Assembly (NCBI GenBank): GCA_011053005.1
Contig: DRHW01000034.1
Coordinates: forward strand, 1-64,000
Length of the DNA: 64,000 nt
Direction: 5' to 3'
Source: Methylophaga sp.
GTDB taxonomy: Bacteria > Pseudomonadota > Gammaproteobacteria > Nitrosococcales > Methylophagaceae
In this document: one piece after another, positions 47,801-58,936 of the stretch
Layout of the letters: each line of letters opens with the position of its first letter
Numbering within the stretch: the first letter of the stretch is position 1
Made by a program: the position numbers and the translations under genes
The notes under the pieces: model-generated
What the model was told of the DNA's origin: nothing
Database searches by the model: none
What the model saw: the letters and a program-made list of their open reading frames with translations, nothing else

Positions 47801-48684
47801 TAGATGATACTCAGAAAGTAACAGATGAGCAGACGAAATTTTTATGGCCCAGTATGGAGCTGGCGGTTGGTTCATTGGTTATCAATGATATGCAATTAGG
47901 TGAATTAGAGTGGCGCGGCCATAGAGAAATAGATGCATGGTTATTAGATAATGGTTCTTTAAAGTCGAAAGAATTCACGGCGTTAATGTCTGTAGGAGAA
48001 TGGCGATATACAGCAAGCGGCGATCAATCACATTTTAAAGTTCAGGCGAATAGCAATAATTTAGCGAAATTATTAGCGAGTTTTGGTTACCAACAAGCGA
48101 TTGATGCTAAAGATGTTAGTTTGTCAGCAGATTTATCATGGCCGGCTAGTCCGCTGGCCGTCAGTACTAAAATATTAACCGGTTCACTTAAATTAGGTTT
48201 AGGTAAAGGCAGACTTAAGGATGTAGAGCCTGGTGCTGCGGGTCGAATATTTGGTTTGATGAGTATCGCTGCTTTACCTAGGCGCTTGTCGTTGGATTTT
48301 AATGATTTATTTTCTAAAGGCTTTTATTTTGATTCGATAAAAGGCTCATTCAAATTTGAAAATGGCCAAGCAACAACCAATGATTTTGTGTTGAAAGGTA
48401 CGCCCGCGACGATCAAAATGGTCGGTCCAGTGGATTTAATTCATCAGCAATATGATCAGGTTGTCACCATTACGCCTAATGTTTCTTCTACATTACCACT
48501 TGCCGGTGCAGTTGCTGGTGGTCCGTTAGGATTGGGGGTGGGAACCGCTATTTTGTTAGTCGATAAATTGGCTGGTGCATTATTTGATAAAAATATCGTT
48601 AATTTGGTCAGTTATACTTATTACTTAACTGGACCGTGGGATGAACCTGAGTTAACAACTGATAAACCATTAGCAACGAAATAA
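44860..48684 (+). CDS. yhdP: YhdP family AsmA-like envelope lipid transport protein
   Basis: YhdP-type proteins are giant inner-membrane-anchored proteins that span the periplasm and help carry phospholipid to the outer membrane with TamB and YdbH. The 1274-residue protein has one N-terminal membrane helix (about residues 12-35). A very long beta-rich region follows, and the family-defining C terminus comes after AGRIFGLMSIAALPRRLSLD and LPLAGAVAGGPLGLGVGTAI. E. coli YhdP is 1266 residues, so it is complete. It follows rng by five bases and is closed by a terminator. Confidence 0.92.
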   Translation: MSVLLRGLHIASKQIVYLLIILITVLILLIAAGYWLTDAVDKRQDEIAVWVGDKVGYPVEIVKAGLSWVDLMPKLQVDGVTVFRQDDKTELLSVQSLYVGLDMIASLRRGEPVLNDLSLTGLNTTIVRDTAGKFQLQGLDLTDQSSAEDIDWSSWVNILNRFQLTDVTINYIDELHTALSGQYQVTQAELSHHFKKWVTAGSIRLPATLGANVEFSGSSLLNWDDLSTSSWQAQAQINELMLAPFSQLAIWQDVAVKNGQLTANISASGIGKKIDEAQTNINLVQATLVSKQENLAHPPVDVEYFKGKIDWQQQAQSWHLAGHDIQIKMNGDAWPATNFNIQKQNQNDWLISSDYLRLSDLTALASLTALSPEMIRVQQPAGDLDNLTLQYSAQQGLTQLAFNLRDGAALPWQDYPGVTGLTGAINWQEGMAKLKLDSHQVTFYPETWLDSAVFFDSVTGELDLQQQDKSWVLQSNALHLWNDDLNIQLDGSVQHASDSKVTNDLKITLQDVVVNRWQAYVPQRILSRSFKKWSKNAFVAGNIIDGIIELQGDLAAFPYEDEPDKGHFKMNLQAENVQLHYAPGWPDLFDVTGLVTGLANDLTIQAKSGKIAGFKFADVTTTISKLVHDEPILRVEGNLTGTTADALLFLQNSPLKQRFGKVAQLADAKGNSNIQLNLMVPLADEDKTQVAGNVSFVDSQLQSKSLPELTMSQINGKLNFTNNGVTAKNIKAVLLAAPVNINVSPRDDATIVSASSQLSLQQVANLWPNVVPKFVSGETTYQAEVAISEQAIGEFDVDTSIQSDLQGIKVDLPEPFFKNHEDMINFRASVKQKDNTPIYAVEYGKLINVLLAQDTQQWRGELSIGAGKAVLPAHGVKVRGQLSTLSLDTWNDWSKQYNDKTQSNNSFIASMSDAVVKVDKLTGFNQEFTNVTLSAKKQGEGWRADIDSAESKGMIYWPDDFDSNTVLKLNFDKLTLTLPKLDDTQKVTDEQTKFLWPSMELAVGSLVINDMQLGELEWRGHREIDAWLLDNGSLKSKEFTALMSVGEWRYTASGDQSHFKVQANSNNLAKLLASFGYQQAIDAKDVSLSADLSWPASPLAVSTKILTGSLKLGLGKGRLKDVEPGAAGRIFGLMSIAALPRRLSLDFNDLFSKGFYFDSIKGSFKFENGQATTNDFVLKGTPATIKMVGPVDLIHQQYDQVVTITPNVSSTLPLAGAVAGGPLGLGVGTAILLVDKLAGALFDKNIVNLVSYTYYLTGPWDEPELTTDKPLATK

Positions 48685-48724
48685 AGCACTCATCTCACAT
48701 GATTGGTGATTAATATATCATGGC

Positions 48725-48762
48725 AAAAAAAAGGCCACTTAAATAATTAAGCGGCCTTTTTT
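48725..48762. terminator. bidirectional intrinsic terminator (yhdP / glnN)
   Basis: AAGGCC-A-CTTAA, an ATAA loop, and TTAAG-C-GGCCTT form a stem with one mismatch, with A- and T-tracts on either side. It is placed to end yhdP on the plus strand and glnN on the minus strand. Confidence 0.9.
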
Positions 48763-48779
48763 AATGTTGGCTGTTTAGT

Positions 48780-50954
48780 TTATTTGATAAACAACATTTC
48801 TTGATATTTAGGTAGTGGCCACAATTCGTCCGCTACTTCCATTTCTAAGATATCTGCATGTGCACGCACTTCAAGCATTAAAGGAAGAATAACTTTGGCA
48901 CAAAAATGCATGTGTTCTTCTGTCGTTGCAAAATCATGTTTTGTTATTGCTTCGCTCAATTTTGTTACTTCAGCGAGCATTGCATTTGATTCCAATGCTA
49001 CTTTTTTAGCAATTGAGCTATCAAGTTCAATACCCATTTCAGCCATGCTTGAGTTGGTGATTGATAATTCGGCAAGATAAGATATCGCTGCTGGATAAAT
49101 CAATGTTTTTGCCATGTCTATAACAAGTTTAGCTTCCACTTCAATAGATAAAATGTATTGTTCTGCGTAAACAGCAAAACGGCTTTCAAGTTCTACCTTA
49201 GACAATACACCCGTACTTTCAAACAAGGCTCTAACAGGTTCTTCAAGCAGCGCAGGCAAAGCATCAGCAGCGGTAGGAAGGTTTAGTAAACCACGCTCAG
49301 AAACCGCTTTTTCATGCCATTCTGATGAGTAACCATCACCACCAAATACTGCATTGCCATGTTGTTCCATTAATGTTTTTAATACAGCTACAACGGCATC
49401 TGTTTGTGGCGTGCCATTTTTCAATTCGGCTTCAAGTTTTTCCGCAATCCAGTTAAGCGAATCAGCAAGCATCGTATTCATTGCTACTAATGGACCAGAT
49501 ACTGATTGTGATGAACCTACTGCACGGAATTCAAAACGGTTGCCGGTGAATGCAAACGGTGATGTACGGTTACGATCGCCAGGATCACGTTCAAAATTAA
49601 GAATTTGTGACAAACCAAGGTCCATGGTGCCACCTGATTCCGAGCTAGTGATTTTACCGTCTTTAATATCTTGGAAGACTTTTTCAAGTTGGTCGCCAAG
49701 ATAGACAGATAAAATAGCTGGTGGCGCTTCATTAGCACCCAAACGATGATCATTTGCCGCTGAAGCAATAACAGCGCGTAATAATGGTCCAAATTTATGC
49801 ACCCCACGAATGACCGCACCACAGAATAATAAGAAATTTAAGTTATCATGCGGTGTTTTTCCGGGATCAAGTAAGTTACCTTGAGTCGCGTTACCAACTG
49901 ACCAATTTACGTGCTTTCCTGAACCATTAATGCCGGCAAATGGTTTTTCATGAAGTAAGCAAAGGAAACCATGTTTTTTCGCAGTTGCTTTCATTAATGT
50001 CATCATTAATTGTTGATGATCGGCTGCGATATTGGCTGCTTCGAAATAAGGTGCAATTTCAAACTGACCTGGCGCTACTTCATTATGATGGGTTTTTGCA
50101 GGAATACCTAAACGGTATAACTGATCTTCAAAGTCTTGCATAAAGACTTGAACGCGTGCAGGAATGGCACCGAAATAGTGATCATCAAATTGCTGACCTT
50201 TAGCTGGAGAGGCGCCAAATAATGTGCGGCCAGCTAATAATAAATCTGGGCGGCTATTAGCAAAGTTGCTATCAACAAGGAAATATTCTTGCTCGGCACC
50301 ACAGCTTGAGTTTAGTGGTGCGATATCGGTTTCGCCCATCAATGATAATACTTTGTTACCCGCTTTATTCATTGCATTGATAGAGCGAAGTAATGGGATT
50401 TTTTTATCAAGCGCTTCACCCGTCCATGACATGAAGACACTTGGGATCATTAATGTAGATCCGTTGTCTGTGTGCATGATATAGACAGGACTAGTTGGAT
50501 CCCATGCAGTGTAACCACGGGCTGCATTCGTCATACGAATACTACCGTTAGGGAATGAAGAACCATCTGGTTCGCCTTTGATTAATAGGCTGCCAGAAAA
50601 TTCGGTAATCGCTCGACCTTCTGAATCGCTGATGATGAAACCATCATGTTTTTCAGCGGTGATATTAGTCATTGGGTAGAAAATATGAGAAAAGAATTTC
50701 ACGCCTTTAGATTGCGCCCATTCTTTCATTGCAGCGGCAACGACTTCAGCTGTCGCACCATCAAGTGGAGCACCTGTTTGCACTGTATTTTTCATCGCTT
50801 TGAAGGCTGTTTTAGATAAAGCCTCTTCCATTTTAGCTAAGTTAAATACATCTGTTGCCCAGATTTTATCTAAAGATTTAGGTGTTTTAACGACCATGGT
50901 TTCACGGTTTGTTATTTGATGAATTGCTTGAACGCGTGATTCATTTCCACTCAT
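48780..50954 (-). CDS. glnN: glutamine synthetase type III (GlnN)
   Basis: The 724-residue enzyme matches the type III glutamine synthetase family, which makes glutamine from glutamate, ammonia and ATP as a double-ring dodecamer. Family marks are an N-terminal region including WATDVFNLAKMEEAL, the glutamate-binding NSSCGAEQEYFLVD, HHNEVAPGQFEIAPYFE, NGSGKHVNWSVG, and the nucleotide segment RNRTSPFAFTGNRFEFRAVG. It lacks the adenylylation tyrosine of type I enzymes. Type III is usual in Bacteroidetes and cyanobacteria and patchier in proteobacteria. GAGG precedes the ATG. An NtrC site and a sigma-54 promoter upstream point to nitrogen control. Confidence 0.95.
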   Translation of the reverse strand: MSGNESRVQAIHQITNRETMVVKTPKSLDKIWATDVFNLAKMEEALSKTAFKAMKNTVQTGAPLDGATAEVVAAAMKEWAQSKGVKFFSHIFYPMTNITAEKHDGFIISDSEGRAITEFSGSLLIKGEPDGSSFPNGSIRMTNAARGYTAWDPTSPVYIMHTDNGSTLMIPSVFMSWTGEALDKKIPLLRSINAMNKAGNKVLSLMGETDIAPLNSSCGAEQEYFLVDSNFANSRPDLLLAGRTLFGASPAKGQQFDDHYFGAIPARVQVFMQDFEDQLYRLGIPAKTHHNEVAPGQFEIAPYFEAANIAADHQQLMMTLMKATAKKHGFLCLLHEKPFAGINGSGKHVNWSVGNATQGNLLDPGKTPHDNLNFLLFCGAVIRGVHKFGPLLRAVIASAANDHRLGANEAPPAILSVYLGDQLEKVFQDIKDGKITSSESGGTMDLGLSQILNFERDPGDRNRTSPFAFTGNRFEFRAVGSSQSVSGPLVAMNTMLADSLNWIAEKLEAELKNGTPQTDAVVAVLKTLMEQHGNAVFGGDGYSSEWHEKAVSERGLLNLPTAADALPALLEEPVRALFESTGVLSKVELESRFAVYAEQYILSIEVEAKLVIDMAKTLIYPAAISYLAELSITNSSMAEMGIELDSSIAKKVALESNAMLAEVTKLSEAITKHDFATTEEHMHFCAKVILPLMLEVRAHADILEMEVADELWPLPKYQEMLFIK

Positions 50955-51169
50955 TGTTTCTTTCCTCGACTATATGCTAAGTGTGTAGTGTTAATTAAAT
51001 TTGGGAATATCAGTGTTAATAATTTTGATAATAACGTTTGTGTAATAGTCAATGATGTATCGTTTAAGCTGCTTAAATTGTTTGAAAGCAATTTTACTTA
51101 TTTAAAGTCATCAGGCTTCATAATTTTGGGCAAGCTATATCTCAACAAAATGTTCTTCGGTAATGATAA

Positions 51170-51184
51170 GCAATAACTAGACCA
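51170..51184 (-). promoter_or_regulatory. sigma-54 promoter of glnN
   Basis: On the minus strand the sequence reads TGG-TCTAGTTA-TTGCT, with GG and GC exactly 10 bases apart, matching the -24/-12 consensus spacing. Transcription would start near 51158, giving a leader of about 200 bases before glnN. Confidence 0.75.
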
Positions 51185-51257
51185 TCAATTTTCGTGGGCT
51201 ATCTTAGCTCATTAAGTGAAAGAAAATTATTTTAAAAGGTCTTTTTTTGCTCTAGTT

Positions 51258-51284
51258 TGGTGCGTTTGGCACCATTTTGGTGCG
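51258..51284. promoter_or_regulatory. NtrC-binding enhancer of glnN
   Basis: GCACCATTTTGGTGC at 51269-51283 is a perfect match to the GCAC-N7-GTGC NtrC palindrome. A further half-site GGTGC at 51259 puts three half-sites exactly 10 bases apart. It is centred about 118 bases upstream of the predicted sigma-54 start, the usual distance for NtrC enhancers. Confidence 0.82.
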
Positions 51285-51396
51285 CCCTCTATCGTCGAGT
51301 TAATTCATTCTTTTAATGATATTTTTGAAGCTGGTTTTTGTGCATTCTGCTTGCTCAAAAGAGTATTTTTTAAAGTCTCAATAAAGTCGCAGGGTA

Positions 51397-51416
51397 ATAG
51401 ATCTGGTATGATCTAT
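51397..51416 (+). promoter_or_regulatory. tldD promoter with overlapping palindrome
   Basis: TGG-TATGAT (51404-51412) is an extended -10 element. It lies inside ATAGATC-N6-GATCTAT, a perfect seven-base inverted repeat that could be an operator, about 30 bases before the tldD start. Confidence 0.45.
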
Positions 51417-51443
51417 AACCTTGTAACGTAAAGCAACTAATTC

Positions 51444-52886
51444 ATGACATATTCTATTATCGAACAAGTTAGCCAACAATTATTATTGCCTGCAGGCTTG
51501 AGTGAAGCCAACTTAGAGCAGACTCTCGCTTTAACCATGGGGCGCGGCGTTGATTATGCTGATCTGTATTTTCAACAATCGCGTCAAGAAAATTGGCTAT
51601 TAGAAGATGGCATTATCAAGGATGGTGGCTATCACATTGAGCAAGGCGTGGGTGTTAGAGCTTGTAGCGGCGAAAAAACAGGTTTTGCTTATTCCGATGA
51701 TTTAATTTTACCAGCATTACAAGATGCGGCAAAAGCAGCACGGGCTATTTCTCGCCAAGGTGCTGATGGCCGTGTACAAGCGTGGAAACGCACAGCAGCA
51801 CCTAAATTCTATGCGGAAACAGATCCTCTAGCAGTATTAAGTGTTGAGCAAAAACTTGCGTTATTACACCAAGCAGATGCGGCTGCGCGGGCTGCTGACC
51901 CAAGAGTGACTCAAGTTAGTGTAAGTCTAGCAGGTGGTTTAGACACCGTTCTAGTCGCCGCGAGTGATGGTACATTTGCTGCTGATATTAGGCCTCTAAT
52001 AAGAATGAATGTCTCTGTTATTGTTGAATCGAAAGGGCGGCGTGAACGAGGGAGTGCTGGCGGTGGTCGACGTTTGGATTATCGTTATTTTCAAGATAAT
52101 GATTTACCGACAAGTTATGCAAAAGAAGCGGTTCGCCAAGCTTTAGTGAATTTAGAAGCTGTCGATGCACCAGCGGGTAATATGACCGTGGTACTTGCAT
52201 CTGGTTGGCCGGGCGTATTGTTGCATGAAGCGGTTGGACATGGTTTAGAAGGTGACTTTAATCGTCGTGAAAGTTCTGCATTTTCTGGAAAAATCGGCGA
52301 AATGGTTGCATCACCACTCTGCACGATTGTAGATGATGGCACGTTACAGGACCGGCGAGGTTCTTTATCTATTGATGATGAAGGCGTACCAACAGAAAAA
52401 ACAACACTGATTGAAAATGGTAGATTAACCGGATATATGCAAGATAAACACAACGCACGTTTGATGGGTAGTCGAAGCACAGGCAATGGTCGCCGTGAAT
52501 CTTATGCTCATTTACCGATGCCTCGTATGACCAATACTTATATGTTGCCAGGCGAGCATGAGCCAGAAGAAGTGATTGCCTCAGTCAAAAAAGGAATTTA
52601 CGCGGTTAACTTTGGTGGCGGCCAAGTGGATATAACATCCGGTAAATTCGTGTTTTCGACTAGTGAAGTGTATTTGATTGAAAACGGCAAAATTACTCAA
52701 CCCGTAAAAGGCGCGACCTTAATTGGTAATGGCCCTGAAGTGATGAGTCGAATCAGCATGGTGGCTAATGATTTAGAGTTAGATAGTGGTGTTGGTAATT
52801 GTGGTAAAGAAGGCCAAAGCGTACCCGTAGGTGTTGGTCAGCCGACATTAAAAATAGATGGTTTAACAGTAGGTGGAACAGCGTGA
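51444..52886 (+). CDS. tldD: metalloprotease TldD
   Basis: TldD pairs with TldE/PmbA to form a zinc protease that degrades unfolded peptides and matures microcin B17 and CcdA. The 480-residue protein has the metal motif [11 protein letters not shown] (HExxxH, about residues 260-270), and the C-terminal [27 protein letters not shown]-type region of the family. The E. coli protein is 481 residues. TldE is not in the window. It overlaps the downstream PP-loop gene by four bases. Confidence 0.96.
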
Positions 52887-53935
52887 CAACAAAACATAAG
52901 GCTATAGCCTTAATTTCAGGTGGTTTAGATTCGCTTTTAGCGGTACGTGTAATGCAAGAGCAAGGCATTGAAGTGGAAGGGATTAACTTTTACACAGGTT
53001 TTTGTGTGGAAGGTCATACCCATGCGATTCGTAACAGCGATAAAGACAAACAAAAACGTAATAATGCCCTATGGGCAGCAGAACAGTTAGGGATTAAGCT
53101 GCACATTGTTGATGTTATTGAAGAATATAAAGATGTGTTGCTGAATCCAAAACACGGCTACGGCGCCAATATGAATCCTTGTTTAGATTGCAAAATATTC
53201 ATGGTGGGTAAGGCAGTACAGTGGATACAAGAAAATCGTAAAGATGGTTTTGACTTTATTATTACGGGTGAAGTAATCGGTCAACGTCCGATGTCACAAC
53301 GTAAACAAACCATGCCGATTGTTGCTAAGGAATCAGGCGCTGAAGATATTTTAGTTCGCCCTTTATGTGCTAAAAATTTACCAGCGACCAAGCCTGAACT
53401 TGAAGGTTGGATAGATCGTGAAAAAATGTATGACTTTAGTGGCCGTACCCGTAAACCTCAGATGGCATTAGCAGAGAAATATGGTTTTAAAGATTATGCC
53501 TCTCCTGCTGGTGGATGTTGTTTCCTAACTGATAAAAATTACTCTGATAAATTGGTTGATTTATGGGATGCACGCGGCACGCGAGAATATGAAATGGATG
53601 ACATTATGCTGTTAAAAGTCGGCCGCCATATTCGTCCTAAACCAGAGTTTAAGTTGATTATTGCTCGTGATGCAGGCGAGAGTAAGTATCTGGAAGGCTA
53701 TCGGAAACAATTTGTTACCATTCAAATCGTCAGTCATAACGGTCCCTTGACGATGGTTGATGGCGATATCAAACCTGAAGATTTTGAATTGGCGGCTGGC
53801 GTTGTTGCACGTTACGGACAAGGACGTGAAGCAGAGCAAGTTGAAGTACATATCTCCGTCCCCGGTCAAGATGTTAAGATAATGAACATTAAACCGCTGA
53901 CGGTAGAGCAAGTAAATGAGGAATGGCACGTATGA
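52883..53935 (+). CDS. PP-loop thiouridylase-like protein with C-terminal NFACT-R-like domain
   Basis: The 350-residue protein has an N-terminal ATP-pyrophosphatase (PP-loop) domain with [10 protein letters not shown] at residues 12-21. Two likely active-site cysteines lie in [10 protein letters not shown] (about residues 98-107) and SPAGGCCFL, as in MnmA/ThiI-type tRNA thiolases. The C-terminal part ([20 protein letters not shown], then [16 protein letters not shown]) resembles the RNA-binding NFACT-R domain. It differs from both MnmA and ThiI in length and ending. It overlaps tldD (ATGA) and the TusA-like gene (ATGA). I infer an RNA thiolation enzyme fed by that sulfur carrier; the exact nucleotide is unknown. 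Confidence 0.72.
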
Positions 53936-54159
53936 GCCAGCATGAATTAGACGCGAGACGCATGTTGTGTCCAATGCCTGTTATAAAGACACAAAATAAA
54001 GTTAAAGAATTAGTTGTTGGTGATATATTGAATGTTATTTGTACCGACCCAGGTGCATTAAGTGACATTCCCGCATGGGCAAGAATTAATGGCCACACGA
54101 TTTTGGGACATCAGAGTAATGATGATGAGCTCACGATTACCGTACAAGTCGGTGGTTAA
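53932..54159 (+). CDS. TusA-family sulfur carrier protein
   Basis: The 75-residue protein has the family start LDARRMLCPMPVIKTQNKV with the persulfide-bearing cysteine in the CPMP motif (Cys13). It matches TusA/SirA-like sulfur carriers. The start at 53932 overlaps the upstream stop and has GAGG ten bases before it; the ATG at 53923 is only two bases from it and so less likely. Its tight coupling to the PP-loop protein suggests the two act together in sulfur transfer. It is not safe to call it the housekeeping tusA. Confidence 0.85.
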   Translation: MSQHELDARRMLCPMPVIKTQNKVKELVVGDILNVICTDPGALSDIPAWARINGHTILGHQSNDDELTITVQVGG

Positions 54160-54234
54160 TCTTAGTTTCAAAGCGTATTTTGTAGTAACTAACTTAAGTA
54201 TTAAGCATAGTAATTTAAAATTGGAGAATAATTA

Positions 54235-55644
54235 ATGTCAGTCGAAAACGTGCTTCAAATGATAAAAGATGAGGAAGTCCTTTTTGTGGATTTTCGTTTT
54301 ACAGATACACGTGGTAAAGAGCAACACGTTACTTTTCCTGCACACAGTATTGACGAAGATACTTTTACCGAAGGTAATATGTTTGATGGCTCATCAGTGG
54401 CCGGTTGGAAAGGTATTAACGAATCAGACATGATTTTAATGCCAGATCCTGAAACGGCAGTATTAGATCCATTTATGGATGATACAACCTTAATTATCAG
54501 CTGCGATATTATTGAACCGGCAACAATGCAAGGTTATGAACGTGATCCACGTAGCGTTGCTCACCGCGCTGAAGCCTATATGCAATCAACAGGTTTGGCT
54601 GATACCGCTTATTTTGGTCCAGAAAATGAGTTTTTCATTTTTGATGATATTCGTTGGGGCAGTGATATATCGGGTGCGTTCTTTAAAATCGATTCTGATG
54701 AATCTTCATGGAACACTGAAAAAGTCTATGCAGATGGTAACAAAGGTCATCGTCCAGGTGTAAAAGGGGGGTATTTCCCTGTACCTCCAGTCGATTCATT
54801 GCAAGATATTCGTAGTGCAATGTGTTTGACACTGGAAGAAATGGGACAAGTAACAGAAGTTCATCACCATGAAGTAGCGACAGCTGGTCAGTGTGAAATT
54901 GGTGTTAGATTTAATACGTTAGTGAAAAAAGCGGATGAAGTTCAACAGCTTAAATACGTTATTCACAATGTTGCCCACGCTTACGGTAAAACAGCGACCT
55001 TTATGCCTAAACCTTTAGTGGGTGATAACGGTAGTGGTATGCACGTTCACATGTCTTTAGCTAAAGATGGTGAAAATTTGTTTGCTGGTAATAAATATGG
55101 TGGTTTGTCAGAAACGGCTCTTTATTATATTGGTGGTGTTATCAAGCATGCGAGAGCATTAAACGCATTTACTAATGCCAGCACCAACAGCTACAAACGT
55201 TTAGTGCCAGGTTTTGAAGCACCGATTATGTTGGCTTATTCTGCACGTAACCGTAGCGCATCAATTCGGATTCCTTTTGTTAATAATCCAAAAGGTCGTC
55301 GTATCGAAGTTCGCTTCCCTGATTCAACGGCTAACCCATACTTGTCATTTGCAGCTTTATTAATGGCGGGTCTTGATGGTATTAAAAACAAAATCCACCC
55401 TGGTGATGCGATGGATAAAGACTTGTATGATTTGCCTGCTGAAGAAGCGGCACAAATTCCACAAGTTTGTTATGGCTTAGATCAAGCGTTAGATGCATTG
55501 AACGAAGATCGTGCTTTCTTAACAGAAGGTGGTGTGTTCACTGATGATATGATCGATGCTTATATTGAGTTGAAAATGGGTGAAGTGACTCGTCTGCGTA
55601 TGGAAACTCATCCTGCAGAGTTTGATATGTATTACAGCGTTTAA
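54235..55644 (+). CDS. glnA: glutamine synthetase type I (GlnA)
   Basis: GlnA is the main ammonia-assimilating enzyme. The 469-residue dodecamer-forming type I protein has [17 protein letters not shown], the metal-binding [12 protein letters not shown], the glutamate loop [11 protein letters not shown], and NRSASIRIP. The adenylylation tyrosine sits in [10 protein letters not shown] (Tyr398), so GlnE-type control is likely. TTGGAGAA precedes the ATG. No NtrC site or sigma-54 promoter is seen in the 75-base upstream gap; a weak sigma-70 candidate ends in TAAAAT. A strong terminator follows, so it is not normally one transcript with ntrBC. Confidence 0.97.
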
Positions 55645-55672
55645 TTTTATTTTTAATTAAATGGCACTTAAG

Positions 55673-55714
55673 AAACGCCCCCGTCTTTATTCATTAAAAC
55701 GGGGGCGTTTTTTT
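55673..55714 (+). terminator. intrinsic terminator of glnA
   Basis: AAACGCCCCCGT and ACGGGGGCGTTT form a perfect 12-bp stem around a 14-base loop, followed by seven T bases. Very strong. Confidence 0.95.
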
Positions 55715-55749
55715 ATGGCTGATTGTTGCAGTTATTATCTTGTAGGGCT

Positions 55750-56277
55750 ATGATTTATATTATGAAATATTATACTTTATTGTTATTCCTTCTCAGTTTT
55801 ACTGTGAACGCGGATGTTTATCGTTCAGTTAATAAACAAGGTAATGTGAGTTTTTCAGATACCGCTAGCGATAATGCTGAAAAAGTAGAACTACAGCCAT
55901 CTTATACTTACAATCCTCCTGTTATTCCTGACTTAGCTGATGATGAGTCTGCATCTGAACCTGTTGAAATGGCCATACCAGATTACGCATTAGTCATTAT
56001 ATCGCCTGGTCAGAATGAAGCACTCCGTGAAAATGCAGGAAATATAACGATTAATAGCAGCATTACGCCCGAACTGAATATTGATCGAGAAGATAAATTA
56101 GTCTTTTCATTAGATGGTCAATTAAAAAGCGAAGCACAAATTGCCACGAACTATACGTTTACAAATGTTGATCGAGGGAGTCACATCGCCGTTGTTTCTG
56201 TAGTTGATAAAACGGGAAAAATTATTAAATCAAGTAAATCACGACTATTTCATGTGTTACGTGCAAATGTAAATTAA
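55750..56277 (+). CDS. DUF4124-domain periplasmic protein
   Basis: The 175-residue protein has a signal peptide (KYYTLLLFLLSFTVNA) then the DUF4124 motif DVYRSVNKQGNVSFSDTA. The remainder is a probable beta-sandwich (about 80-175, including SPGQNEALRENAGNITINS). A homologous DUF4124 segment occurs in the nuclease fusion at 31554. Function is unknown. The position between glnA and ntrB recalls other gammaproteobacteria that carry a small exported DUF4124 protein here. ATGs at 55750 and 55762 are both possible; neither has a good ribosome-binding site. Confidence 0.75.
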   Translation: MIYIMKYYTLLLFLLSFTVNADVYRSVNKQGNVSFSDTASDNAEKVELQPSYTYNPPVIPDLADDESASEPVEMAIPDYALVIISPGQNEALRENAGNITINSSITPELNIDREDKLVFSLDGQLKSEAQIATNYTFTNVDRGSHIAVVSVVDKTGKIIKSSKSRLFHVLRANVN

Positions 56278-56292
56278 CATCGTTAGTTTTTC

Positions 56293-56309
56293 CGCACCAA
56301 TGTGGTGCG
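56293..56309. promoter_or_regulatory. NtrC-binding site upstream of ntrB
   Basis: CGCACCAATGTGGTGCG is a perfect palindrome with seven-base arms and fits GCAC-N7-GTGC. It starts 15 bases past the stop of the DUF4124 gene, and is centred about 163 bases before the predicted sigma-54 start of ntrB. Confidence 0.85.
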
Positions 56310-56437
56310 CATAAGGGGTGACGCTCCTTTATTTCACACCATAAATCATTTTTCCAACTAAAAATTATCATACATATTAATATTAAATATAATTAATTCA
56401 AATAGATAAACCGCATTTTATACTATATCTATAAAAC

Positions 56438-56453
56438 TGGATCATTCCTTGCT
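56438..56453 (+). promoter_or_regulatory. sigma-54 promoter of ntrBC
   Basis: CTGG-ATCATTCC-TTGCT has GG and GC exactly 10 bases apart, plus the TTGCT of the -12 element. Transcription should start near 56464, 30 bases before ntrB. With the NtrC site upstream it implies autoregulation. Confidence 0.78.
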
Positions 56454-56493
56454 CTATTGAATTCATGATTAATATTTTGATTAAATGTAGACA

Positions 56494-57549
56494 ATGACAA
56501 CTTTACTATCTTGCCAAGATATTATGGAAAACCTCACTACAGCGATTGTAGTGATGGATCATTCTCTTCGTATTTGTAAGCTCAATTCAGCTGCCGAAAT
56601 AATGTTTGGCATGAGTCAGCGTCAGGCTGAAGATATACCAATTAATGCATTACTGTTGGGTGAAGGAGACTTGTTAACTAGCTTGGAGCGTGTTCAGAAA
56701 ACAGGACAGCAGTTAATTGAACGTGAAGTTAAGTTATATATTCCTAGTGCTGGCGATATAGTGGTTGATTGTGCAATTAAATTGGTTGAAACCGAAGGTG
56801 GGGAAGATCACTATATAATGTTAGAGCTGGCGCAGTTAGATTTCCAACAACGAATCAGTCGCGATGAAAGCTTGCATACACAACAACAAGTATTGCGTGG
56901 CCTTGCCCATGAAATCAAAAATCCACTCGGTGGTTTAAGAGGCGCAGCGCAGCTATTAGAACGCCAGCTTGATTCACCTGAATTAAAAGAATACACCGCG
57001 ATCATTATTAGCGAAGCCGATCGCCTACAAAACTTGATGACCAAGATGCTAGGGTCACATCAACAAGCAGAACATGCATCGGTGAATATTCATGAGGTCT
57101 TACAACGCGTGAGACAGCTGGTATTTGCTGAAGTTGATCATCGTTTGATTTTTAAAGGCGATTATGATCCGAGTATTCCAGATTTATTTGTTGATTTTGA
57201 TCAACTCGTTCAAATATTCCTCAATATTATACAAAACGCGGTTCAGGCATTGCACGGTGCAGGAAAAATTGTGCTCAGAACAAGGGCGGTTCGTAACATC
57301 AGTATTGATCAAAAGCGTTATCGTTTAGGTGTTTGTATTGATATTGAAGATGACGGACCAGGTATTCCAAAACTGCTACAAGAAAGTATGTTCTTTCCGC
57401 TGGTGACAGGACGAGCAGAAGGGACGGGATTAGGACTATATCTTGTGCAAAACTTGGTGCAGCGTAATAACGGAATGATTTTATGCAATAGCCAACCTGG
57501 TCGTACCATTTTTTCTGTTATTTTCCCACTGGAGCAAACGAGTGAGTAA
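56494..57549 (+). CDS. ntrB: nitrogen regulation sensor histidine kinase NtrB (GlnL)
   Basis: NtrB phosphorylates NtrC in nitrogen limitation and dephosphorylates it when PII is bound. The 351-residue soluble protein has an N-terminal PAS domain (about 10-120) and the phospho-acceptor GLAHEIKNPLGGLRGAAQLL with His139, the same number as in E. coli. The ATPase N box is FLNIIQNAVQAL, followed by the G boxes DDGPGIP and GTGLGLYLV. It has no membrane segment. It overlaps ntrC by eight bases. Confidence 0.97.
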   Translation: MTTLLSCQDIMENLTTAIVVMDHSLRICKLNSAAEIMFGMSQRQAEDIPINALLLGEGDLLTSLERVQKTGQQLIEREVKLYIPSAGDIVVDCAIKLVETEGGEDHYIMLELAQLDFQQRISRDESLHTQQQVLRGLAHEIKNPLGGLRGAAQLLERQLDSPELKEYTAIIISEADRLQNLMTKMLGSHQQAEHASVNIHEVLQRVRQLVFAEVDHRLIFKGDYDPSIPDLFVDFDQLVQIFLNIIQNAVQALHGAGKIVLRTRAVRNISIDQKRYRLGVCIDIEDDGPGIPKLLQESMFFPLVTGRAEGTGLGLYLVQNLVQRNNGMILCNSQPGRTIFSVIFPLEQTSE

Positions 57550-58936
57550 AAAATCAAATGTGTGGGTAGTGGATGATGATCGTTCAATCCGTTGGGTATT
57601 ACAAAAAGCGCTTGAGTCAGTTGATATGAATGTCCGCGTGTTTGAGAATGCTGCCGATGTGCTCAATGAATTGAAGAATGATACACCAGATGTTCTAATC
57701 AGCGATATTCGAATGCCTGGTATGGATGGTTTGCAATTACTTCGTGATATTAAACAAAATATTCCAGATCTTCCCGTGATTATTATGACGGCTTATTCTG
57801 ATTTAGATAGTGCAGTATCCGTTTATGAAGGTGGTGCATTTGAATATTTACCAAAACCTTTCGATGTTGATGAAGCCGTTGATTTAGTAAGACGAGCGAT
57901 TGTTCATCGTGAAGAACAATTACAGCAAACAACGGATAAACCTATCGTCCTCGCGACGGAGATTATTGGTGAAGCACCTGCGATGCAAGAAGTATTTAGA
58001 TCGATAGGTCGTTTGGCTCGTTCAAATATTAATGTTTTAATTAATGGTGAATCTGGAACGGGTAAGGAACTGGTGGCAAATGCTTTGCATAAACACAGTC
58101 CACGTAGAAATGCACCGTTTATCGCACTTAATATGGCGGCTATTCCCAAGGAGTTAATGGAATCAGAATTATTCGGTCATGAAAAAGGTGCCTTTACAGG
58201 TGCCCATGCCTTACGCAAAGGAAGATTCGAACAAGCAGATGGTGGAACATTATTCTTAGATGAAATTGGCGATATGCCAATAGATTTACAAACGCGACTT
58301 TTGCGTGTTTTGTCTGATGGTGAATTTTTTAGAGTTGGCGGTCATAGTGTTGTTAAGGCTGATGTTCGAATTGTCGCCGCTACACATCAAAATCTTGAAC
58401 AGCGAGTAGAGCAAGGTGAATTTAGAGAAGATTTATTTCACCGTTTGAATGTTATTCGAATACAAATTCCAGCGTTAAGAGAACGCAGAGAAGATGTCCC
58501 TGCATTGGCAAACTACTTTTTAAATAAGGCAGCTTCTGAATTAGCCGTTTCCGCTAAAACATTATCGGTTGAGGTTGAAAGCTATTTAAGCCAATTAGCT
58601 TGGCCAGGAAATGTGCGACAGCTTGAAAATACCTGTCGATGGCTGACCGTTATGTCGCCTGCCAAAGTAGTACAGGTAGATGATCTTCCAAGTGAATTGA
58701 TGAATGAGGTTTCAGTTGAACAACTTGGAGCTGGTAATTGGCAAGTGTTATTCAAACAGTGGGCTGCAACGAAAGCATTGACGGGTCAAGAGGGTGCTTT
58801 GGCGGATATCGTGCCGTTAGTTGAGCATTTATTAATGGAAGTAGCATTAGAGAAAACCATTGGTAAACGTCAAGATGCAGCAAAGTTATTGGGGTGGGGT
58901 AGGAACACCCTAACAAGGAAGTTAAAAGATAGTTGA
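57542..58936 (+). CDS. ntrC: nitrogen regulation response regulator NtrC (GlnG)
   Basis: NtrC is the sigma-54 activator of nitrogen-starvation genes. The 464-residue protein has a receiver domain with the phospho-acceptor in SDIRMPGMDG (Asp55). A central AAA+ domain shows Walker A GESGTGKELVANALH, the sigma-54-contacting GAFTGA loop (about residue 218), and Walker B GGTLFLDEIGDM. A C-terminal Fis-type helix-turn-helix comes after KRQDAAKLLGWGRNTLTRKL. The start is GTG, overlapping the end of ntrB. It is the likely regulator of glnN and of its own operon. Confidence 0.97.
   Translation: MSKKSNVWVVDDDRSIRWVLQKALESVDMNVRVFENAADVLNELKNDTPDVLISDIRMPGMDGLQLLRDIKQNIPDLPVIIMTAYSDLDSAVSVYEGGAFEYLPKPFDVDEAVDLVRRAIVHREEQLQQTTDKPIVLATEIIGEAPAMQEVFRSIGRLARSNINVLINGESGTGKELVANALHKHSPRRNAPFIALNMAAIPKELMESELFGHEKGAFTGAHALRKGRFEQADGGTLFLDEIGDMPIDLQTRLLRVLSDGEFFRVGGHSVVKADVRIVAATHQNLEQRVEQGEFREDLFHRLNVIRIQIPALRERREDVPALANYFLNKAASELAVSAKTLSVEVESYLSQLAWPGNVRQLENTCRWLTVMSPAKVVQVDDLPSELMNEVSVEQLGAGNWQVLFKQWAATKALTGQEGALADIVPLVEHLLMEVALEKTIGKRQDAAKLLGWGRNTLTRKLKDS

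Follow-up and report, generated by a model that had tools for sequence, protein, structure and literature searches.

The promoter module which most of the Methylophagaceae carry before glnA, consisting of one or more NtrC sites and a sigma-54 (-24/-12) element, is missing from this gene in one clade of the family. The three genomes concerned (the Methylophaga genome studied here, G000, and its sisters G001 and G006) are those with glnN, the gene of a type III glutamine synthetase, beside glnA, and in them the module is found on glnN and on ntrBC. We put at roughly 0.8 the probability of the explanation as a whole, in which glnN would be under NtrC/sigma-54 control, glnA would have lost its module and GlnN would be the nitrogen-controlled enzyme.

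The glnN gene and its enzyme class

The window is the whole stretch of DNA that was analysed, 64,000 nucleotides of contig C34 from a genome of 2.89 Mb (44 contigs, 99.96% complete). The glnN gene occupies positions 48780–50954 on the minus strand, and the sequence-only reading, which had seen in it a GlnN-type enzyme of 724 residues, is borne out by the length of the ORF, by the GSIII_N domain (PF12437, 223 bits against a cut-off of 25), which Pfam places together with Gln-synt_C and Gln-synt_C-ter (PF00120 and PF18318), and by a match of residues 7–724 to the solved GSIII structure PDB 3O6X (E 1.4e-188). On these matches GlnN is a genuine type III enzyme, with catalysis and double-hexamer assembly predicted. 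Passages of a review give Bacteroides fragilis as the source of 3O6X and cyanobacteria, Bacteroides and protozoa as organisms from which type III enzymes are known (PMC9397018); GlnN belongs to the same family as the B. fragilis enzyme over nearly its whole length, although the phylum differs. That a gammaproteobacterium should have a type III enzyme is in itself unremarkable, as many of them do. A different sense of "type III", that of TIGR03105 (type III glutamate-ammonia ligase, gamma-glutamylmethylamide synthetase), was excluded for GlnN, which reaches 52 bits against a cut-off of 470; the catalytic fold is common to both, but TIGR03105 spans only about 435–450 aa.

Besides glnN, two members of the synthetase family are encoded in the window genome, namely glnA, which lies in the window, and a gene on contig C15 (L002). 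The C15 gene, whose downstream neighbour begins like a glutamine amidotransferase, was read by eye as a candidate gamma-glutamylmethylamide synthetase, and the gene order around it, judged in the same way, suggests methylamine use via the N-methylglutamate route.

Predicted promoter and NtrC sites upstream of glnN

The predicted sigma-54 promoter of glnN, ATGGTCTAGTTATTGCT, lies on the minus strand at 51185–51169, where a TGG-N8-TTGCT element had been claimed from the letters; its GG-N10-GC spacing is exact and it is conserved in relatives. From the usual spacing between a -24/-12 element and the start, transcription is predicted to begin at about 51158, which would give a leader of about 204 nt. 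Two NtrC enhancer sites, neither assigned to a strand, are predicted further upstream. Site 1 (51269–51283) is a GCACC-N5-GGTGC palindrome with no mismatch, as the earlier GCAC-N7-GTGC description had it, whilst the extra half-site reported alongside is present as part of site 2 (51249–51263), which has two mismatches and lies 20 bp from site 1. The 118 bases once given as the distance between palindrome and promoter hold from the centre of the palindrome to the predicted start, but the promoter element itself is 83 bp from the palindrome edge and 99 bp away centre to centre. The features of an NtrC-activated sigma-54 promoter, namely a GG-N10-GC element, two palindromes upstream of it and genome-encoded NtrC and RpoN, are all found, and transcription that depends on ntrC and rpoN when nitrogen is limiting is predicted from them.

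When the 489-bp gap upstream of glnN was shuffled 20,000 times under a first-order Markov model, a perfect palindrome never appeared, and an NtrC and sigma-54 pair arose once at one mismatch or fewer and nine times at up to two mismatches. Perfect palindromes are found at two places in the window, upstream of glnN and before ntrB, and at three in the genome, the third being on contig C8. With up to two mismatches, 17 NtrC sites are seen across the window against 14.4 expected, which is chance level, so that site 2 depends on its conserved 20-bp spacing. Genome-wide, the 25 NtrC-like places with at most one mismatch compare with 19 for a reversed-pattern control, and only perfect or conserved NtrC sites are therefore counted. 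The glnN -24/-12 element fits TGG and TTGCT and departs from the usual consensus at all four CACG positions, and it was missed by a window scan at three mismatches, in which the total was 100 against 101.3 by chance. As the general scans run at chance, the case stands on the perfect site, its pairing and its conservation. A matrix trained on glnA promoters picked a poor sigma-54 site at -179 (score 0.6) in the window's own glnN upstream and not the proposed element, the high matrix total of this region stemming from the NtrC site. No riboswitch or leader RNA reached the Rfam gathering threshold over 48600–56600, and a sigma-70 scan over 50800–54300 gave matches at the chance rate (8 against 9.5 in shuffles).

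Conservation among glnN relatives

Of 63 genomes searched in the order (57 from the Methylophagaceae and six from a second family, f2), 17 have glnN at E<=1e-60, as do 11 of 369 drawn from the class, the window's own among them. At least 551 stretches of a named collection encode a GlnN relative, and the best 80 loci were kept, which is not a census. The 103 glnN upstreams were reduced to 99 distinct ones by merging out the near-identical L048, L052, L071 and L120. Left out were L069, L082 and L143 (same genomes as L005, L011 and L040), L007 (a contig-end copy of the gene of L053) and the fragments L039 and L012; the partial or distant L042 and L043 were kept, as was L123 despite doubt over its start codon. 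L105 is an intact glnN to which a match further downstream had been joined. In G024 glnN lies on two contigs (L007 and L053) with equal score, either as a duplicate or as an assembly effect. Upstreams of other genes from the same named loci, 329 in number, served as controls.

A -24/-12 element is present within 280 bp in 82 of the 99 distinct glnN upstreams against 62 of the 329 controls (Fisher p 2e-31), and a pair of NtrC site and sigma-54 element, 50–200 bp apart, in 46 against 15 (Fisher p 2e-21). Neither element nor pair occurs in any of the eight upstreams of an actinobacterial/myxobacterial branch (L119, L122, L127, L132, L133, L142, L144 and L145). These rows nest within the gammaproteobacterial glnN tree, from which the Psychromonas rows L107 and L108 were excluded; the glnN of this branch was apparently transferred across phyla without its promoter. 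A comparison of the upstream regions of orthologues had been proposed by the sequence-only reading, and both elements prove to be conserved: they are kept in the sisters and, outside the actinobacterial/myxobacterial branch, the -24/-12 element is present in 82 of 91 upstreams and the pair in 46 of 91. Nine rows outside the branch have no -24/-12 element; three of these represent five Methylophagaceae, and the other six are L035, L043, L092, L115, L124 and L129. The glnN upstreams of L008, L045, L048, L049 and L052 have no NtrC site and a best -24/-12 score of 10.2. When a matrix trained only on glnA promoters was applied, 59 of the 99 glnN upstreams scored above the 99th percentile of shuffles (with two rows misplaced).

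In the sisters, the -24/-12 element upstream of glnN is identical in G006 (L006) and has one change in G001 (L005), and both retain the two NtrC sites with their 20-bp spacing despite an 8% divergence in GlnN, that of G001 being 92% identical to the window's; the 20-bp pairing is also found in G021 and G004 (L009 and L010). The spacing between NtrC site and promoter shows phasing, with a best period of 10.5 bp for 61 sites in a scan of 6–20 bp (R 0.43, nominal p 1e-5) and of 10.4 bp for the 49 sites left at one per locus (R 0.43, nominal p 1e-4), these p values being too small because the rows are related.

In the two Psychromonas loci (L107 and L108), glnN lies directly 3' of glnA in tandem and has a -24/-12 element of its own, with no NtrC site in range. 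A 1-kb insertion in the glnN of these loci was rejected, as the match had extended into the glnA just upstream.

The glnA promoter and the Ntr circuit

The type I glutamine synthetase gene glnA (NF007006) lies at 54235–55644 on the plus strand, with tusA (PF01206, 53932–54159, plus strand) directly 5' of it, and the gap of 75 bp between them (54160–54234) contains no NtrC or -24/-12 element. In the family, NtrC site(s) and a -24/-12 element, mostly of the form TTGGC-N8-TGCT, are found in the 500 bp upstream of 45 of 50 glnA loci, and in 35 of these 45 there are two NtrC sites 29–31 bp apart. The exceptions are G029, G032 and the three genomes of the window clade. Within 500 bp of glnA neither an NtrC site nor a -24/-12 element is found in G000 and G006, and in G001 there is no -24/-12 element and a single two-mismatch NtrC site, which is inside tusA; glnA of the window genome does not have the upstream elements of an NtrC/sigma-54-controlled glnA as in the core NtrC regulon. 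G032 has a -24/-12 element and no NtrC site at up to two mismatches, and in G029, a genome of 1.1 Mb, neither a glnN nor a pair at glnA was found. The six genomes of family f2 also have no NtrC and sigma-54 pair at glnA. Over the last 250 bp before glnA, the three clade genomes reach matrix scores of at best -0.7 to 1.2 for NtrC and -5.3 to -1.2 for sigma-54, against medians over all 56 glnA loci of 20.8 and 24.7.

The tusA-glnA gap of 75 bp in the window compares with one of 150 bp in the sisters and of 166–182 bp in G020, G021, G024 and G033, in which both elements are present. In the family loci inspected, the gene order is tusA, glnA, a small secreted-protein-like gene and ntrB; for G034, no tusA-length frame is listed before glnA. 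A possible decayed relic of the -24/-12 element, AAAGCGTATTTTGTAGT (54170–54186, plus strand), is identical to the element of G017 at 12 of 17 positions but is not significant here. It was equalled by 21 of 200 shuffles over 75 bp in the window genome and by 2 and 3 of 200 in the sisters, and a decayed promoter before glnA is suggestive only, since shuffles match it too often for it to count as evidence.

The three genomes of the window clade are the only ones, out of the 17 of the order with glnN, in which this gene lies between yhdP and tldD, and in the window it is about 3.3 kb from glnA. The pair precedes glnA in 13 of 13 glnN-bearing genomes outside the clade in which glnA was found, and in none of the three within it. 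Eight of those 13 have the pair on both genes, and five (G034, G425, G426, G410 and G411) show the opposite state to that of the window, with the pair on glnA and a glnN which has no NtrC site and at best a weak -24/-12 element (10.2). In G031 (L011, C37) the pair is on glnN and no other synthetase-family gene was seen, an absence which may be a gap as this genome is 97% complete in 80 contigs. The module is thus found on at least one synthetase gene in all 17.

Downstream of glnA, the sensor kinase gene ntrB (56494–57549, plus strand; NF008293, 328 bits, cut-off 240) and the sigma-54 activator gene ntrC (57542–58936, plus strand; TIGR01818, 739 bits, cut-off 559) are preceded by a perfect predicted NtrC site (56294–56308, no strand) and a predicted sigma-54 promoter, CTGGATCATTCCTTGCT (56437–56453, plus strand). 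The pair at ntrBC is present in 28 of 30 family loci, the window included, the exceptions being G004, for which glnA was not located, and G027, with none. As ntrBC have this predicted NtrC/sigma-54 promoter of their own, they need not rely on readthrough from glnA.

The genome also encodes one rpoN (PF04552, 232 bits), two PII genes and GlnE. A scan for pairs covered ten stretches, containing 11 of the 25 NtrC-like places, and two PII loci; six of the ten stretches gave no pair. Other pairs precede an MFS transporter gene read as NarK (C36), an ammonium transporter gene (C4), a gene ahead of glnK-amtB (C5) and a gene on C8. Pairs were also seen within the C15 synthetase gene (L002), in the stretch on C37 and at the second PII locus, but these lie within coding sequence and look like chance. 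The C8 gene, which follows a perfect NtrC palindrome and a -24/-12 element (L149, 1993–1907), resembles by eye that of an EAL-domain (cyclic-di-GMP) protein, and beside the NarK-like gene of C36 there is an ORF (L150, 3–2219) which resembles, again by eye, an ammonium transporter fused to GGDEF-EAL signalling domains.

Discussion

We propose that sigma-54 RNA polymerase would transcribe glnN from the -24/-12 element at 51185–51169, and that phosphorylated NtrC, bound to the two sites 20 bp apart (51249–51263 and 51269–51283), would activate it at a spacing which fits the helical phasing of the relatives, and that NtrB and NtrC would likewise be expressed from an NtrC/sigma-54 promoter. The glnA gene would have lost its own NtrC/sigma-54 promoter in the ancestor of the three-species clade; nitrogen control of glutamine synthetase synthesis would now lie on the type III enzyme, and GlnA would be made from a presumed sigma-70 promoter and then controlled post-translationally by GlnE. 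A regulatory hand-off of this kind, with the module lost from glnA in one clade and kept on the linked glnN, making GlnN the nitrogen-responsive enzyme, is the history that we favour with moderate confidence. On this view G031 may depend on glnN as its sole synthetase gene. The loss at glnA was probably one event, which gives n=1 for any correlation. The suggestion that GlnN is the enzyme of nitrogen starvation and glnA the more constitutive gene gains comparative support from the lack of the module at this glnA when 45 of 50 family loci have it, but "constitutive" perhaps goes too far: with GlnE encoded, adenylylation of GlnA may well persist, and readthrough could still bring glnA under nitrogen control. 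The sequence-only reading was right on the sequence and is probably right on the biology.

The possibility of readthrough leads to an alternative without any hand-off, in which both synthetases stay under Ntr control, glnA being reached by readthrough or from an undetected promoter in the stretch tldD-tusA-glnA. The divergent neighbour of glnN, tldD (51444–52886, plus strand), is co-directional with the NFACT-R_2 gene, tusA and glnA, with short gaps, the enhancer pair sits between glnN and tldD, and NtrC is able to act in both directions. However, no -24/-12 element pointing to tldD scores 9 or more in the window genome, so that a divergent sigma-54 promoter was rejected; the sisters have one weak element each in this direction (10.7 and 10.9), not common to both, and between tldD and glnA in the window there is no NtrC site at one mismatch or fewer and one -24/-12 element of score 12, inside tldD. 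We regard dual control as unlikely. A similarly low probability is given to the proposal that the -24/-12 element of glnN is real but that many relatives use a different sigma-54 activator with it, NtrC acting in only part of the group. This would account for the 36 of 82 upstreams with a -24/-12 element which have no NtrC site at up to two mismatches in range, but the matrix does detect NtrC-like sites of a more degenerate kind in some of the 36 (e.g., L038 and L074) and the palindrome of the window is perfect.

That the motifs arose by chance and an ordinary sigma-70 promoter reads glnN is very improbable: five relatives do lack the motifs, scans of the window with general consensus motifs do not exceed chance and sigma-70-like matches exist, yet these too come at the chance rate, and the conservation, the control upstreams and the phasing all speak against it. 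NtrC can repress where its site overlaps a start, and glnN might be repressed rather than activated in the way known for the ntrBC promoter of E. coli; we give this hardly any credence, as the sites lie some 100–130 bp ahead of the predicted start and next to a -24/-12 element with which such sites are phased among relatives.

The proposed arrangement has in common with enterobacterial glnAp2, the promoter of the glnA-ntrBC operon at which NtrC sites lie upstream of the -24/-12 promoter of a glutamine synthetase gene, that NtrC sites and a -24/-12 element precede the synthetase gene; it differs in that the synthetase is of type III, that glnA is without the module and that ntrBC have a predicted NtrC/sigma-54 promoter of their own. 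The glnT product of Sinorhizobium meliloti, despite its name GSIII, is presumably a different and shorter enzyme than GlnN. Its gene is up under nitrogen limitation, with glnA unchanged, according to part of one report (PMC5596199), and it is affected in GlnD/GlnBK mutants according to part of another (PMC3596328); the division of labour would be similar to that proposed here, and the passages concerned do not show direct action of NtrC on glnT. The cyanobacterial glnN is a closer counterpart as regards the enzyme, a type III second synthetase in both cases: in Synechocystis it stands beside glnA and is induced by nitrogen starvation through NtcA, as described in passages of PMC6316151 (it is also mentioned in PMC3646685), whereas the activator predicted here is NtrC with sigma-54. 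In Proteobacteria glnA is described as a core member of the NtrC regulon in a study with no occurrence of the word glnN in its main text (PMC5343134), and a search of the open-licence literature, supplements apart, gave no account of an enzyme of the glnN type being regulated by NtrC.

A clade which carries the nitrogen switch on a very distantly related synthetase would be a natural experiment in the rewiring of an essential circuit with its function kept, and its relatives supply both-wired and oppositely wired states for comparison. The type III enzyme, which has been studied mainly in Bacteroides and cyanobacteria, would thereby gain a predicted role and a predicted regulator across many Gammaproteobacteria.
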